Of a DNA stretch of 33,448 nt, positions 3,158-27,547 are shown one piece after another (positions within the stretch are counted from its first letter, which is position 1; each line of letters starts with the position of its first letter). The notes beneath the pieces were generated by a model. It had not been told where the DNA came from. It did not search any database and saw only the letters and a list, made by a program, of their open reading frames with translations. A program made the position numbers and the translations under genes. The stretch is from NCBI GenBank assembly GCA_025463555.1, contig JAODAS010000034.1:1-33448 (forward strand). The letters are read 5' to 3'. The DNA is from Schumannella sp. Its GTDB lineage: Bacteria > Actinomycetota > Actinomycetes > Actinomycetales > Microbacteriaceae.

Positions 3158-4711
3158 ATGACCGCAGCCACCGTCGTCGTCGGAACCGGACCCGTCACGA
3201 TCGAGGAGGTCGTCGCGGTAGCCCGGGACGCAGCCACTGTGCGCCTCAGCGACGATTCGCTGGAGGCGATCGCGGCATCCCGAGCGCTGATCGAGCAGCT
3301 GGCCGGCGACCCGGAACCGCACTACGGGGTGTCGACCGGGTTCGGGGCGCTGGCCACGACATCCATCCCGCCCGAGCGGCGCCAGCAGCTGCAGCGCTCG
3401 CTGGTGCGGTCGCACGCGGCGTCGTCGGGGCCGGAGGTCGAGCGCGAGGTCGTGCGCGGCACCATGCTGCTGCGCCTGTCGACACTGGCGACCGGGCGAA
3501 CGGGCGTGCGGCCCGAGGTCGCGCTGCAGTACGTCGCGTTGCTCAACGCCGGAATCACGCCGGTGATCGGCGAGTACGGAAGCCTCGGCTGCTCGGGAGA
3601 TCTGGCGCCCCTGGCCCACATCGCGCTCGCGGCGATGGGCGAGGGCGATGTGCGCGATGCCGCCGGGGTCGCCATGGGGGGCGCCGAGGCACTCGCCGCG
3701 GCAGGTCTCGAGCCGATCGTGCTGCAAGAGAAGGAGGGCCTGGCGCTCATCAACGGCACCGACGGGATGCTCGCGATGCTGGCCCTCGCGATCACCGATC
3801 TGCGTGAGTTGCTGACGACGGCCGATCTCGCGGCTGCAATGAGCGTGGAGGGGTTGGCCGGCACGGACCGCGTGTTCGCAGCCGACCTGCAGGCGCTGCG
3901 TCCGCATCCGGGGCAGGCGGTGTCGGCATCCGTCATGCGCGCTGTGCTCGCCGGATCGGGCGCGATCGCGGCTCATGCGACGACCGGGTTCACCCGCGTG
4001 CAGGACGCGTACTCGCTGCGCTGCGCGCCGCAGGTGCACGGGGCGGCCCGCGACACCGTGGAGCACGCCGCCGTGGTCGCCGGCCGGGAGCTGGCGAGCG
4101 CGATCGACAACCCGGTGGTGACGCTGGATGGTCGGCTCGAGTCGAACGGGAACTTCCATGGGGCGCCGATCGGGTACGTGCTCGACTTCCTGGCGATCGC
4201 GGCCGCGGATGTGGCGAGCATGAGCGAGCGGCGCACGGACCGCTTTCTGGACAAGACGCGCAACGGCGGGCTCACGCCCTTCTTGGCCGAGGACCCCGGC
4301 GTGGATTCGGGGCTCATGATCGCGCAGTACACCGCCGCCGGAATCGTCACCGAGCTGAAGCGCCTGGCGGCCCCCGCATCCGTGGATTCGATTCCCACCA
4401 GTGCCATGCAAGAGGACCACGTGTCGATGGGCTGGTCGGCGGCGCGCAAGCTGCGGCGATCGATCGACGGGTTGCAGCGCGTGCTCGCGATCGAGTTGCT
4501 GACCGCCGCCCGGGGGATCGAGTTGCGCGGCGAGGCGCCCGCGCCGGTGACGGCTGCGGTGATCGCGTCGATGCGGCAGACGATCCCCGGCCCCGGCCCC
4601 GACCGGTACCTCGCTCCCGAGATCGCCGCCGCGGTGGCGCTCGTGTGCTCGGGTGCGCTGCTCGCGCATGTGCCGGCGCCTCCCGCGACCGAGCACGTTT
4701 CCGCCCAATGA
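3158..4711 (+). CDS. hutH: Histidine ammonia-lyase
   Basis: A 517-residue enzyme deaminating L-histidine to trans-urocanate, the first step of the Hut pathway. [10 protein letters not shown] (residues 56-65, catalytic Tyr56) and [14 protein letters not shown] (141-154) are the diagnostic motifs. The triad that cyclises into the MIO electrophile is Cys145-Ser146-Gly147 rather than the usual Ala-Ser-Gly, a variant I recall from Streptomyces HutH. The start at 3158 matches the family N-terminus; a nearby ATG at 3150 is out of frame. The last residues (EHVSAQ) are encoded by the left arm of a dispersed palindromic repeat. First gene of the hutHUGI cluster; aromatic-amino-acid lyases share the fold, but context fixes histidine. 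Confidence 0.96.
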
Positions 4712-4748
4712 GCACGGCCCACCACCCACGCTCGGCGCAAACGTGCTC
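4691..4748 (+). repeat. Palindromic repeat family A, copy 1 (hutH 3' end / hutU leader)
   Basis: A 58-bp imperfect inverted repeat starting GAGCACGTTT and ending AAACGTGCTC. The right arm carries the 18-bp core CGCTCGGCGCAAACGTGC at 4729-4746, found identically in two other copies in this window. It overlaps the last seven codons of hutH and fills most of the hutH-hutU gap, so its RNA could form a hairpin between the two cistrons. No T-run follows. Confidence 0.85.
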
Positions 4749-4781
4749 GCTCGGCGCGCGGGTCCCCCTGAAGGAGAAACC

Positions 4782-6443: not shown

Positions 6444-7307
6444 ATGGCCATCGCCCTGCCGAATGATCCGCTCTGGCCCCGCGCGGGATCGTGGCCGGAT
6501 GCCGTACCCGGCCAGCGCGCGGACATCGCCCTCGCGGGCATCCCGACCCACACCCGGTCGCTCTCGCCGACGCAAGCGCACCTCACCCCCGCGGCCGTGC
6601 GGGAGGCGCTGAAGCGGTATTCGTTGCATACCTCAGGGTTGCGCGTGGTGGACGCTGGGGACGCCGTGGATCCGGATCTGGTGGATGCAGCACCATGGAT
6701 CGCGGCTGTGGAGGCCGAGTTGCTGATCGCCATCGGCGGCGACAACTCCGCCACCGTCCCCGTCGCGCTCGGCCGTGGCGCGACCGGGCTCGTGACGGTC
6801 GACGCCCACCACGACCTGCGCGACGGCGTGTCGAACGGGTCGCCGGTGCGGCAGCTGATCGAGGCGGGGATCGCCGGGACCGCCGTCGTGCAGATCGGCA
6901 TCGAACCCCTCGCCAACTCGCGCGAGTACGCCAAACGCGCCGCCGACCTCGGCATCACCGTGGTCCTCCGCGACGAGCTGCGGCGCCGCCCGATCGACGA
7001 CGTCATGGCCGAGGCCCTGGAGCTCGCGGGGTCGGGCAACCGCCGCGTGCACGTGGATCTGGATGTGGACGTCTGCGATCGGGCGGCCGCTCCGGCGTGC
7101 CCGGCGTCGGTACCCGGAGGCCTCTCGGCGATGGAACTGCGCACCGCCGCGCGGCTGGCGGGACTGCATCCGGATGTCGTCTCGATCGACCTGACCGAGG
7201 TGGATGCCGCGGCCGACACCCCCGACGGGCGCACCGTGCGCTTGACCGCGCTGTGCGTACTCGAAGCGGTGCGTGCGCGCGTCGAGCTCATCGAGGACCG
7301 CGCGTGA
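6444..7307 (+). CDS. hutG: Arginase-family hydrolase, probable formimidoylglutamase
   Basis: A 287-residue ureohydrolase-fold protein, inferred to split N-formimino-L-glutamate into glutamate and formamide, closing the Hut pathway. Manganese-site motifs are GGDNS (98-102), DAHHD (120-124) and DVDVCD (207-212), followed by VPGGLS. The first motif has Asn101 where GGDHS normally supplies a His ligand; the remaining ligands are present. Substrate comes from context: it sits between hutU and hutI and no separate deiminase (hutF) is seen. Agmatinase or guanidinobutyrase activity is the alternative. Its TGA overlaps the GTG start of hutI (GTGA), indicating translational coupling. Confidence 0.85.
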
Positions 7308-8440
7308 CCTCGACCCTGGTCACCGGGATCGGCCTTCTTGTCACCCATGACGCCGAGCGTCCACAGCGTGCGGATGCCGCCCTGCTTGTGGAGGACGGGT
7401 TGGTCGCCTGGGTAGGAGACGCCCTCGACGCACCGGTCGCCGACGAAGCGCTCGATGTGGAGGGAAGGTGCGTCATCCCCGGCTTCGTCGACTCGCACAG
7501 CCACATCGTGTTCGCAGGGGATCGAGCCGACGAATTCGAGGCCCGGATGGCGGGGCGGCCCTACGAGGCGGGTGGCATCAGGCGGACCGTGCGTCTCACC
7601 CGCGAGGCGTCGGACGACGCGCTGCTCGCGAACGCGCGACGGCTGCTGGCGGAAGCCCGCTCGCAGGGCACCACCACACTCGAGATCAAGTCCGGGTACG
7701 GGCTCACGGTTTCCGACGAGGAACGTGCGCTCGCGCTCGCCGCGACCCTGACCGATGAGGTCACCTATCTCGGCGCCCACGTCGTGCCCGACGGCACCAC
7801 GCGGGAGGAGTACGTGGACCGGGTCTGCGGCGCGATGCTGGAAGCGTGTGCTCCGCACGCGCGCTGGATCGACGTGTTCTGCGAGACCGGTGCGTTCACG
7901 GTGGAGGAGTCGCGGCGCATCCTCGAAGCCGGAAGCGCCGCCGGGCTCGGGTTGCGGATGCACGCGGCGCAGCTCGGCCCGAACCCCGAGGCGATCGCGC
8001 TCGGGGTCTCGCTCGATGTGGCCTCGATCGACCATTGCACGTACCTGTCCTCCACCGACATCGAGGTGCTCGCCGGGTCATCCACCGTGGCGACTCTGCT
8101 GCCCGGTGTGGAATTCTCGACGCGGCAGCCGTACCCCGACGGGAGGCGTCTGCTCGATGCCGGGGTCGCGGTGGCGCTGGCCTGCGACTGCAACCCCGGA
8201 TCGAGCTACACGACCTCGATGCCGTTGTGCATCGCGCTCGCTGTTCGCGAGATGGGTCTCACCCCGTACGAGGCCCTGCGCGCGGCGACGCTCGGCGGAG
8301 CAGCCGCCCTCCGCCGCACCGACATCGGCCACCTGCAGGTCGGCGCCCGCGCCGACCTCGTGGTGCTCGACGCCCCGAGTTTCACGCACCTCGCGTACCG
8401 CCCGGGGGTCCCCCTGGTCTGGCGCGTGCTCGCGCCCTGA
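7304..8440 (+). CDS. hutI: Imidazolonepropionase
   Basis: A 378-residue metal-dependent amidohydrolase that opens the imidazolone ring of imidazolonepropionate to give N-formimino-L-glutamate. Motifs in order: [16 protein letters not shown] (metal ligands H65 and H67, substrate-contact segment 70-78), EIKSGYGL (127-134), [14 protein letters not shown] and [13 protein letters not shown] (metal Asp). A C-terminal composite strand ([11 protein letters not shown]) completes the amidohydrolase fold. The GTG start overlapping the hutG stop gives the family N-terminus and a normal length; the upstream in-frame extension is the shadow of hutG. Last gene of the hut cluster; GC-rich inverted repeats follow. 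Confidence 0.96.
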
Positions 8441-8472: not shown

Positions 8473-8485
8473 TCCGACGCCGAGC

Positions 8486-8543
8486 GTGCACGTTTGCGCC
8501 GAGCGAGCACGGCAGGCCACGCTCGCTCGACGCGAACGTGCTC
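8486..8543 (-). repeat. Palindromic repeat family A, copy 2 (upstream of the DUF559 gene)
   Basis: A 58-bp inverted repeat pairing 20 of 23 positions between its arms. The conserved 18-bp core is in the left arm (8488-8505) as the reverse complement of the core in copies 1 and 3, so this copy is inverted relative to them. It lies between the hutI stop and the nuclease-like gene. Confidence 0.85.
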
Positions 8544-8626
8544 GGGTGGGCGCATCCACAGGGCCGGTTGCCCACAGGTTCGCGCGAACGGCCTATCGGC
8601 GAGGGGCGGCGCGGACACCATCGGGC

Positions 8627-9556
8627 ATGACTGATCTGCCTTCTCTGCCTTTCGTCCGAGCCGCCGACGTCCGGCGCGAGGGCGAGTCCGAACGCCGGCT
8701 CGCCCGCTCTGCGCAGTCCGGCGACCTGTCCCGGGTGCGCCGCGGCGCCTACGCGGATTCCGCCCTCTGGCAAGCACTCTCGCCCGAAGACCGGCACCTC
8801 ATCCGCGTGCTCGCGACCAGTGCGGCCGCGCGCGGCACGCCTGTGTTCTCGCACGAATCGGCCGCCGTCGCCTGGAGGATGCCGATCGTCGGCGGCCTGC
8901 CCACTCGTCCTCAGATCACGGTGCCTCCCGGTTCCGGCTTGCGCAGCAACCGCGCCGTCGTCCGACATGAAGCGCCCCTCGGCTCGCAGGACGTGGTGGA
9001 GCTGGACGCGTTCCGCCTCACGGCTCCCGACCGGACCCTGGTCGACTATGTCGCCGGGCGGACGTTCCTGAGCGGGGCGTGCGCCCTGGAGTCCGCCCTG
9101 CACTCCGGCCTCACGGACCGGGATCGCATCGACCGCGCCATCGCTCGGCGACGCCCGTTCCGCGGTTCGCGCAAGGCCGAGGCGGTCGCTCGCTTCGCGA
9201 GCGAACATTCCGCCTCCCCGAATGAGACGCTCTGCCGCGTCAGATTCCACGAGCTGGGGTTCGCCCAGCCCGAGCAGCAGAAGCGGTACACCGGACGCGG
9301 CGGACAGCACTACTGGGTCGACTTCTACTGGCCGGAATTCGATGTGATCTGCGAGTCCGACGGACGAGTCAAATATGAGGACCCGAGATTCCTCGCCGGC
9401 CGGACGCCCGAGCAGGCGCTCTGGGACGAGAAGCTGCGCGAGGACGAGCTCCGCGCGCAGTCATCCGGGTTCGTGCGCCTCACGTGGAACGACGCCTGGA
9501 ACCGCGCCGGTCTGGTCGCCAAACTCGCTGCCGCGGGCATCCCGCGTCGTCGCTGA
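8627..9556 (+). CDS. AbiEi-like / DUF559 (Vsr-fold) nuclease-like protein
   Basis: A 309-residue protein. The N-terminal ~100 residues resemble the AbiEi-type winged-helix region common in actinobacterial proteins (LARSAQSGDLSRVRRGAYAD, then FSHESAAVAWRMPIVG). The C-terminal ~110 residues resemble DUF559/Vsr-like PD-(D/E)XK folds: NETLCRVRFHELGF (E200), WVDFYWPEFDVICESDG (D232, E243, D245) and DEKLREDELRAQSSGFVRLTW. D232 and E243 are plausible metal ligands, so a nuclease is inferred. There is no signal peptide or membrane helix and no AbiEii partner. The ATG at 8627 matches the start of the globular domain; earlier in-frame codons lie in a repeat. CACCAT at 8616-8621 is a weak -10 five bases before the ATG. 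Inverted copies of repeat family A flank it. Biological role unknown. Confidence 0.75.
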   Translation: MTDLPSLPFVRAADVRREGESERRLARSAQSGDLSRVRRGAYADSALWQALSPEDRHLIRVLATSAAARGTPVFSHESAAVAWRMPIVGGLPTRPQITVPPGSGLRSNRAVVRHEAPLGSQDVVELDAFRLTAPDRTLVDYVAGRTFLSGACALESALHSGLTDRDRIDRAIARRRPFRGSRKAEAVARFASEHSASPNETLCRVRFHELGFAQPEQQKRYTGRGGQHYWVDFYWPEFDVICESDGRVKYEDPRFLAGRTPEQALWDEKLREDELRAQSSGFVRLTWNDAWNRAGLVAKLAAAGIPRRR

Positions 9557-9564
9557 TGCCGAGC

Positions 9565-9623
9565 TTGCACGTTTGCCCCCGTGCGAGCACGTACGACCAC
9601 GCACGCTCGGCGCAAACGTGCAC
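9565..9623 (+). repeat. Palindromic repeat family A, copy 3 (downstream of the DUF559 gene)
   Basis: A 59-bp inverted repeat beginning TTGCACGTTTGC and ending CAAACGTGCAC, with one extra base in its left arm relative to the other copies. The 18-bp core is at 9604-9621 in the same orientation as copy 1. It starts 8 bp after the stop of the nuclease-like gene and could serve as its 3' hairpin. Confidence 0.85.
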
Positions 9624-9684
9624 GCTGGGCGCCGGGCGCGGCCGCGCCGCGCGCCGCCCGCCCGCGCCGCGCGACACGCCCGGG

Positions 9685-9968: not shown

Positions 9969-10277
9969 ATGGCGGGACAGAAGATCCGCATCCGGCTCAA
10001 GTCGTACGACCACGCCGGTCTCGACGCCTCGGCGCGCAAGATCGTCGACACGGTGACCCGCGCGGGTGCGACCGTCGTCGGCCCGGTCCCGCTGCCCACC
10101 GAGAAGAACGTGGTCGTCGTGATCCGCAGTCCTCACAAGTACAAGGACAGCCGCGAGCAGTTCGAGAAGCGCACCCACAAACGACTCATCGACATCATCG
10201 ACCCGACGCCGAAGGCCGTCGACTCGCTCATGCGTCTCGACCTGCCCGCCGACGTCAACATCGAAATCAAGCTGTAG
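9969..10277 (+). CDS. rpsJ: 30S ribosomal protein S10
   Basis: 102 residues, the standard S10 length, starting [20 protein letters not shown] and ending VNIEIKL. It is a 30S head protein and, as NusE in complex with NusB, part of transcription antitermination complexes. The basic loop [20 protein letters not shown] and the [17 protein letters not shown] block are typical. The start is fixed by homology and by the purine-rich AGAGAAGAGA at 9953-9962; an upstream in-frame ATG at 9909 would add non-homologous residues. First gene of the superoperon, directly downstream of a structured leader. Confidence 0.98.
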
Positions 10278-27427: not shown

Positions 27428-27461
27428 CGCGCGCCCCCGCCCCCGCCCCCCACCCCTGATC

Positions 27462-27537
27462 CGGATTCGCAAGCGCGCGCGGACACGCCGCCCGGCCGGG
27501 CGGCCGAGCGGCGTGTCGCGTGCGGGTTGCGAATCCG
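27462..27537 (-). terminator. Large GC-rich inverted repeat downstream of the symporter gene
   Basis: CGGATTCGCAA (27462-27472) pairs with TTGCGAATCCG (27527-27537), and ACACGCCGC with GCGGCGTGT nearer the loop, giving a 76-nt hairpin. It lies 11 bases beyond the symporter stop and just upstream of the ligase promoter, so it is likely the symporter-operon terminator and an insulator for the ligase gene. Confidence 0.7.
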
Positions 27538-27547
27538 CGAGAGGGGG

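Follow-up and report, generated by a model that had tools for sequence, protein, structure and literature searches.

The nuclease locus

The window (33,448 nucleotides, the whole stretch of DNA that was analyzed) belongs to a draft genome of Schumannella sp. (G000; 2.73 Mb, 77% complete), and a congener (G001) was used for comparison. Genes were called with a simple codon-usage predictor made for this analysis. The following features are relevant to the nuclease gene and its palindromes.

4684 to 4756, no strand: repeat A copy 1, a dispersed palindrome that overlaps the hutH end, with forward motifs at 4686 and 4705 and inverted motifs at 4723 and 4742
7304 to 8440: hutI (predicted amidohydrolase), upstream of the nuclease gene
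8478 to 8552, no strand: repeat A copy 2, the upstream palindrome, with forward motifs at 8481 and 8500 and inverted motifs at 8518 and 8537; profile limits 8481 to 8544
8627 to 9556, + strand: AbiEi-Vsr-type nuclease gene (P0001, 309 aa), from the open frame, codon usage, and homologues
8627 to 9202, + strand: predicted N-terminal AbiEi-like DNA-binding part (residues 1–192), from structure comparison and PADLOC
9206 to 9553, + strand: predicted C-terminal Vsr/homing-type nuclease part (residues 194–309), from structure comparison and invariant residues
9224, 9320, 9353, 9359, and 9371, + strand: nuclease-part residues E200, D232, E243, D245, and K249, respectively
9558 to 9631, no strand: repeat A copy 3, the downstream palindrome, with forward motifs at 9560 and 9580 and inverted motifs at 9598 and 9617; profile limits 9560 to 9629
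9969 to 10277, + strand: rpsJ, downstream of the nuclease gene and a recurrent neighbor of its homologues in several genera

The first-pass annotation described a 930-bp gene between two repeat copies, and both palindromes and a 309-codon gene at 8627 to 9556 were confirmed. Approximately 75 to 83 nt separate copy 2 from the nuclease start, and 1 to 4 nt separate the stop from copy 3. The gene is single-copy in G000, and G001 has the nuclease gene and all three repeats of the window. At E ≤ 1e-20, homologues of P0001 were found in 93 of 150 genomes of the family. A known RNA family was ruled out by the lack of any Rfam match at gathering scores over the whole window, and a known phage protein family by the lack of PHROGs matches for four proteins. 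No hairpin in the window is stronger than that at 27453 to 27546 (score 25.2), which lies between two genes on the − strand and is not repeat A.

Predicted structure of P0001

The AlphaFold2 model of P0001, based on a 71-sequence alignment, has a mean pLDDT of 95.4. Residues 5–192 of the model resemble the AbiEi antitoxin of Streptococcus agalactiae (6y8q; Z 11.8, rmsd 6.3, 173 residues aligned), and the AbiEi entry was the only Foldseek match at E ≤ 0.001. The best fold match of residues 194–306 is the homing endonuclease I-Bth0305I (3r3p; Z 9.9, rmsd 2.7, 94 residues), followed by NGO0050 (3hrl; Z 9.1), which we take to be a DUF559-type protein, Vsr (1cw0; Z 8.9, 106 residues aligned), and TnsA (Z 6.5). 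Residues E200, E243, D245, K249, E268, K269, R271, and R284 are invariant in the 71 homologues, and D232 is conserved in 99% of them. The aligned homologues are 30 to 42% identical to P0001, except that of G001 (67%).

In profile searches, the PADLOC AbiEi model matched all 71 homologues and Pfam AbiEi_4 matched 27, whereas none matched Pfam DUF559 at E ≤ 0.01. NCBIfam holds no name for P0001, and a profile search of PDB sequences with P0001 gave nothing up to E 1. Of the original label of the protein as an AbiEi/DUF559 nuclease fold, the AbiEi part is thus upheld by PADLOC (71/71) and 6y8q, and the DUF559 part finds no support in sequence (0/71). The description as a Vsr-like nuclease is backed by the structure comparison, in which the C-terminal half of the model appears to have a Vsr/DUF559-like fold. 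According to a published study (PMC7319586), AbiEi binds two and Rv2827c binds four 23-bp inverted repeats at their promoters. By analogy with this reported binding, the N-terminal half of P0001 likely binds the four-motif palindrome.

Repeat A in the source genome and its congener

Repeat A is a palindrome of ~70 nt in which one 12-bp motif occurs four times (allowing up to 3 mismatches), twice in forward and twice in inverted orientation. The motif starts are spaced by 19-18-19 nt in copies 1 and 2 and by 20-18-19 nt in copy 3. Copy 2 folds better than all of 200 dinucleotide shuffles (z −3.8), and the folding of copy 3 is weaker (z −1.8; 7 of 200 shuffles equally good). The repeat A palindromes are far from chance. 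Model R1, which represents repeat A, matches 26 places in G000, each at E ≤ 3.3e-11 on the better strand (one further doubtful match, E 0.008, was left out), and it matches 13 of the 150 family genomes. Copies 2 and 3 had been thought to lie in opposite core orientation. This was not borne out: the + strand scores best for both, weakly determining the orientation of copy 2 (60.5 versus 57.4 bits; 60.8 versus 45.5 bits for copy 3), and the two copies align better directly (44) than inverted (33).

Copy placement was analyzed for 25 of the 26 places in G000. All 25 copies, and all 21 in G001, overlap a stop codon or lie at most 45 nt from one, a zone that makes up 24% (G000) and 27% (G001) of the intergenic sequence in the analyzed stretches, which were chosen because they bear repeats. 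Divergent gaps account for 31 and 36% of the intergenic bases, respectively, and hold no copy of repeat A. The suggestion that repeat A simply accumulates at gene 3′ ends therefore holds in this genus. It had been posed as the alternative to a module of nuclease and repeat, but the two readings are compatible. With all 46 copies this close to a stop codon, repeat A may also end transcripts, and its strict position fits a host function equally with mobility. In other genera the placement rule is looser. In G009, 3 of 20 palindromes are in divergent gaps and 2 of 20 inside predicted genes; in G099, 3 of 7 are inside predicted genes; and G022 has 1 of its 13 in a divergent gap. Copy 1 is present at the same gene end in G001; in both genomes it covers the hutH stop codon (4709 to 4711 in the window), and the final HutH codons are inside the palindrome.

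Palindrome pairs around homologues

Imperfect palindromes were sought in the 450 nt before and the 350 nt after the gene at 75 high-ranking Microbacteriaceae homologue loci (74 distinct loci, since L037 is apparently the same record as L069). An upstream and a downstream palindrome were counted as a pair at a local score ≥ 28 between them, a level set after the data of this first set. A matching pair brackets the gene at 43 of the 75 loci (42 of 74 distinct), and the palindromes are alike within a locus and unlike between genomes. One passing locus, L218, resembles GC-rich noise. Pairs drawn from different loci reached 28 in 3 of 600 cases (0.5%). Chance bracketing was ruled out by control genes near the homologues, taken from the neighborhoods of the first set only: none of 122 reached even 20, whereas 6 of the 15 nuclease genes there reached 28. 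A comparison with hairpin-free flanks had a heavy-tailed null and was discarded. Over the 43 pairs, the median distance is 111 nt from the upstream palindrome to the start codon and 3 nt from the stop codon to the downstream palindrome. The other 32 loci divide evenly: a palindrome with a 19/20-nt repeat is present on at least one side of 16 and missing from the remaining 16. The flanking of homologues elsewhere by palindromes, which the first-pass annotation had set as a test of its proposal, was thus found as pairs at 43 of 75 loci, with a palindrome of the same build at half of the remainder.

With the same settings, 10 of 28 loci of a class-wide homologue set passed and 18 fell below (by family: f1 2/6, f2 1/2, f10 1/2, f26 4/12, f33 1/2, f35 0/1, f37 0/2, and f45 1/1). 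Among 20 further homologues of the family, 8 passed and 12 were below; this set overlaps the first one at the G122 and G124 loci, both below 28 there. The relative orientation within 42 bracketed loci, a weak test for palindromes, was better direct (by ≥ 4) in 21 and better inverted in 11, with the remainder neither. At L237, the 68-nt palindromes on the two sides are identical.

Two loci near rpsJ deserve separate mention. At L200 (G058), a very strong 70-nt hairpin (6515 to 6584) is found shortly before rpsJ at a site where the nuclease is absent; the nuclease homologue of G058 is ~47 kb from this hairpin, and its flanks are unrelated to it. The rpsJ-side homologue of G022 (L067) contains an in-frame TAG, and the palindromes on its two sides have a common core that is missing from most other G022 copies.

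Common architecture of unrelated palindromes

In 47 of 83 palindromes, an arm holds a direct repeat whose two units are offset by exactly 19 nt. A 20-nt shift was found in 10 of 82, and any other shift from 8 to 30 nt in at most 6; shuffled palindromes show the 19-nt internal repeat in 1 to 3% of cases (about 2%). In the 20-locus set, 11 of 16 palindromes have it. It is absent from all four f26 loci with pairs, so that the 19-nt repeat may not extend to every family. Among control hairpins, it occurs in 3 of 19. Two of these three are identical, adjoin the rpsJ of G084, and on visual inspection look like the hairpin downstream of L207, a nuclease homologue at the rpsJ address; the third is apparently in coding sequence. 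The shared 19-nt architecture would be explained most simply by a multimeric binder of double-stranded DNA.

The palindromes themselves are mostly unrelated between genomes. Below 60% protein identity, the median score between palindromes is 11 to 13, and protein identity and palindrome similarity are uncorrelated over 780 pairs (Spearman −0.01). Only above 60% identity are the palindromes mostly alike (4 of 6 pairs).

Dispersal and turnover

A joined query of 24 palindromes was searched against their 24 genomes, and 14 first-look candidates per genome were scored. A bracketing pair itself yields at most four matches (two palindromes on two strands). More matches than the own locus can give were found in 19 of the 24 genomes, with up to 34 in a genome (lower bounds). 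The remaining five (G139, G066, G074, G099, and G022) had four or fewer matches among the candidates scored, that is, no dispersal. Among the matches listed, each palindrome hits its own genome, with the exception of G007, which also carries the palindrome of its congener G089. Some of the dispersed palindromes form close pairs (G060 C3:601681/601782, G133 C3:460294/460466, G050 C8:240668/240830, G148 C1:2389107/2389292, and G022 C1:1173330/1173459), like REPs in BIMEs.

Of 25 repeat A copies in G000, 5 are at the same gene end in G001, namely the three in the window and two more; a sixth row was excluded because it joins neighboring but different gaps. The nuclease-flanking pair is among the stable copies, and most other copies turn over, a contrast that would shrink with any G001 copies missed by model R1. 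Filled and empty palindrome sites were seen at three orthologous gene ends of G000 and G001 that the analyzed stretches happened to cover. At one orthologous convergent gene end (L045 2960 to 3070, L136 4300 to 4490), G001 carries the palindrome at the place of a hairpin with a T-rich tail in G000. One of four Agreia strains lacks the palindrome downstream of the nuclease gene; the missing segment is bounded by short direct repeats, and gain or loss of the palindrome is therefore possible. Other repeats were also noted in these strains. One gene end is followed closely by a different strong palindrome with the core CCTGAGCTTGTCGAAGGG in Agreia Leaf283 (L040 3779 to 3845) and by ~220 nt of yet another repeat in Agreia VKM Ac-1783 (L039, about 3597 to 3820); the two other strains have neither. 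These extra repeats may be families with other source enzymes.

Chromosomal addresses of the nuclease gene

The neighbors of the homologues, in clusters named by their Pfam hits, are recurrent: among 74 loci, the rpsJ cluster was found 13 times, a biotin-carboxylase-type gene 11 times, and a guaB-type gene 7 times. Ribosomal_S10 was found in 10 of 71 downstream neighbors. The addresses are clustered on the tree (11 changes for six labels versus a shuffled mean of 24.1), and the rpsJ address needs 5 changes. The congeners G007 and G089 both have a related nuclease gene at the rpsJ address, but the palindromes around these two genes differ; a palindrome can thus be replaced without a change of address. 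Searches of a plasmid collection (72,556 records, E ≤ 1e-10) and a phage collection (50,697 records, E ≤ 1e-5) yielded no homologue. The nuclease gene looks resident.

Proposed mechanism and alternative explanations

Based on the paired cognate palindromes, their common architecture, their dispersal and species turnover, the predicted fold, and the invariant residues, we consider it fairly probable that the locus is a resident enzyme-plus-repeat system, in which the nuclease recognizes its own palindrome and lets the palindrome, not the gene, copy elsewhere. The single-copy chromosomal gene would encode a protein of two halves, one AbiEi-like for DNA binding and the other a nuclease of the Vsr/homing type. 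This protein would recognize its own palindrome of ~60 to 75 bp as double-stranded DNA through four short motifs with a 19-nt period, with the N-terminal half binding the four motifs, and the upstream palindrome probably doubles as an operator for autoregulation. In the next step, the nuclease half would nick or cut DNA, and repair on a palindrome-bearing template would copy the palindrome, but not the gene, into new intergenic sites. The copies would persist where they are least harmful, in this genus just after stop codons, and the surviving ones may act as two-way transcription ends. The interrupted nuclease gene of G022, which coexists with at least 13 palindromes, counts against this mechanism. 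So do the loci below the pair threshold (32 of 75, 18 of 28, and 12 of 20), the setting of that threshold after the first set, the noise-like pair of L218, the five genomes with no dispersal, the f26 pairs that lack the 19-nt repeat, and the restriction of the protein–palindrome correlation to identities above 60%. A wider generalization, on which we are evenly divided, is that AbiEi-Vsr-type nucleases drive minimal selfish palindromes across the actinobacteria in a homing-like manner without HUH transposases. Every nuclease of this large family would be matched to a four-motif palindrome of its own, the pair would switch specificity wholesale between close relatives at the same address, and the palindromes would be recruited as transcription ends.

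The palindromes could instead be operators of an AbiEi-like autoregulator and two-way terminators recruited by the host, spread by general recombination and not by the nuclease. Such a role would suit the stop-codon placement of all 46 copies in G000 and G001 and their absence from divergent gaps, as well as the gene end at which the G001 palindrome stands where G000 has a hairpin and then a T-rich stretch. According to the same study (PMC7319586), AbiEi-fold proteins autoregulate via inverted repeats upstream of their own gene. An operator, however, needs no palindrome just past the nuclease stop, the placement is looser in G009, G022, and G099, and the dispersed copies track the cognate sequence of each genome and turn over; we regard this explanation as unlikely, although it is the best of the alternatives. 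Appreciably less probable is a role of the nuclease in self/non-self discrimination or genome care, in which the chromosomal palindromes would tether it or protect, and DNA that has mismatches or lacks the palindromes would be cut. The Vsr-like nuclease half and the AbiEi-type N-terminal half, which PADLOC lists under defense, would suit such an enzyme, as would the coexistence of distinct nuclease–palindrome pairs in one genome (L077 and L205 in G089, L088 and L230 in G080). Nevertheless, the homologues have recurrent housekeeping neighborhoods rather than defense islands, no toxin gene was seen adjacent, and neither the plasmid nor the phage collection holds a homologue.

That the gene and palindromes form a transposon with the palindromes as its ends seems very improbable. 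The identical palindromes of L237 and the 5 tree changes of the rpsJ address, by which the gene must have moved or been lost repeatedly, would agree with it, but there is no fixed inverted orientation (21 direct versus 11 inverted of 42), the gene is single-copy in G000, and no plasmid or phage match was found. Together with the recurrent addresses, these results also speak against the original proposal of a mobile or defense module using repeat A as its ends. Finally, repeat A follows many genes in G000, and a nuclease gene might happen to sit between two copies of a 3′-end repeat; this coincidence is hardly credible because differing pairs bracket homologues in dozens of genomes versus 0 of 122 control genes.

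Comparison with known systems

The textbook example of a population of bacterial repeats linked to a single resident enzyme is that of REP palindromes and their RAYTs. The system described here is reminiscent of this case, having a single-copy resident gene flanked by palindromes that are dispersed intergenically. The protein family was expected to differ from that of the REP-associated transposases, and it does: P0001 combines AbiEi and Vsr-like folds in its model, and the Y1 transposase (PF01797) was found in none of 27 genomes, compared with 5 of 14 known genomes as the control, by which mobilization by a RAYT was ruled out. In two published accounts (PMC8266576, PMC3733652), the REPtron is described as a resident, usually single-copy gene whose flanking palindromes are dispersed in intergenic regions and which shows no sign of moving itself. 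Flanking by a dispersed palindrome was found here as well (43 of 75 loci; 19 of 24 genomes, lower bounds). In contrast to the REPtron, the enzyme is unrelated, the palindrome is longer with four motifs and a 19-nt period, and there is no GTAG tag; within 6 nt of the palindrome base, GTAG was found in 2 and CGTC in 10 of 84.

The AbiE type IV toxin–antitoxin systems (AbiEi/Rv2827c) share the AbiEi-fold N-terminal half, and AbiEi binds upstream inverted repeats. Here, by contrast, a nuclease half is fused on, and the palindromes occur on both sides and dispersed. The AbiEii/DUF1814 nucleotidyltransferase toxin gene is absent beside the window gene, whose neighbors are hutI and rpsJ. The 71 downstream neighbors matched 77 families, and AbiEii is not one of the 25 most frequent, so that at most two of these neighbors could carry it. 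An AbiE toxin–antitoxin operon was ruled out, as no AbiEii toxin gene is adjacent.

The nuclease half of the model resembles in its catalytic fold I-Bth0305I, presumably the EDxHD family of homing endonucleases, but here there is neither an intron nor a phage context, and an AbiEi-like half and dispersed palindromes are present. The very short patch repair endonuclease Vsr, which acts at T:G mismatches beside dcm, is similar in the fold of the nuclease half; no link with T:G mismatches or dcm was seen for the present nuclease. NGO0050 is also similar in this fold, and P0001 differs from it by having no Pfam DUF559 match, an extra N-terminal half, and palindromes. As to transposons with terminal inverted repeats, the ends are not regularly inverted (21 direct versus 11 inverted of 42), and neither several copies of the unit (one in G000) nor carriage by the mobile elements searched was seen. 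A classical transposon was ruled out by the single copy, the lack of a fixed orientation, and the lack of a plasmid or phage match.

Among the matches listed in a search of open-licence literature (titles and abstract openings), no paper linked such a nuclease with palindromic repeats. Each known kind that was tested has a defining feature which the system lacks, and it is therefore set apart as a new kind; if any enzyme with dispersed palindromes counts as one kind, it is a variant of that kind. The idea of an undescribed REP-like, repeat-associated nuclease finds strong support in the cognate pairs, their dispersal and shared architecture, and the absence of RAYTs from the 27 genomes searched, whereas the reading as a mobile or defense module with repeat ends does not hold. 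The fusion proteins, known to family libraries merely as AbiEi-type, gain a function to test, and the cognate protein–DNA pairs offer a testable set for binding, cutting, and repeat spread. The arrangement of enzyme and palindromes is seen in Microbacteriaceae and other families of the class, and if the proposal is true, many actinobacterial intergenic palindromes gain a named source. A second, unrelated enzyme family would then behave like the RAYTs, and such arrangements would have evolved more than once.
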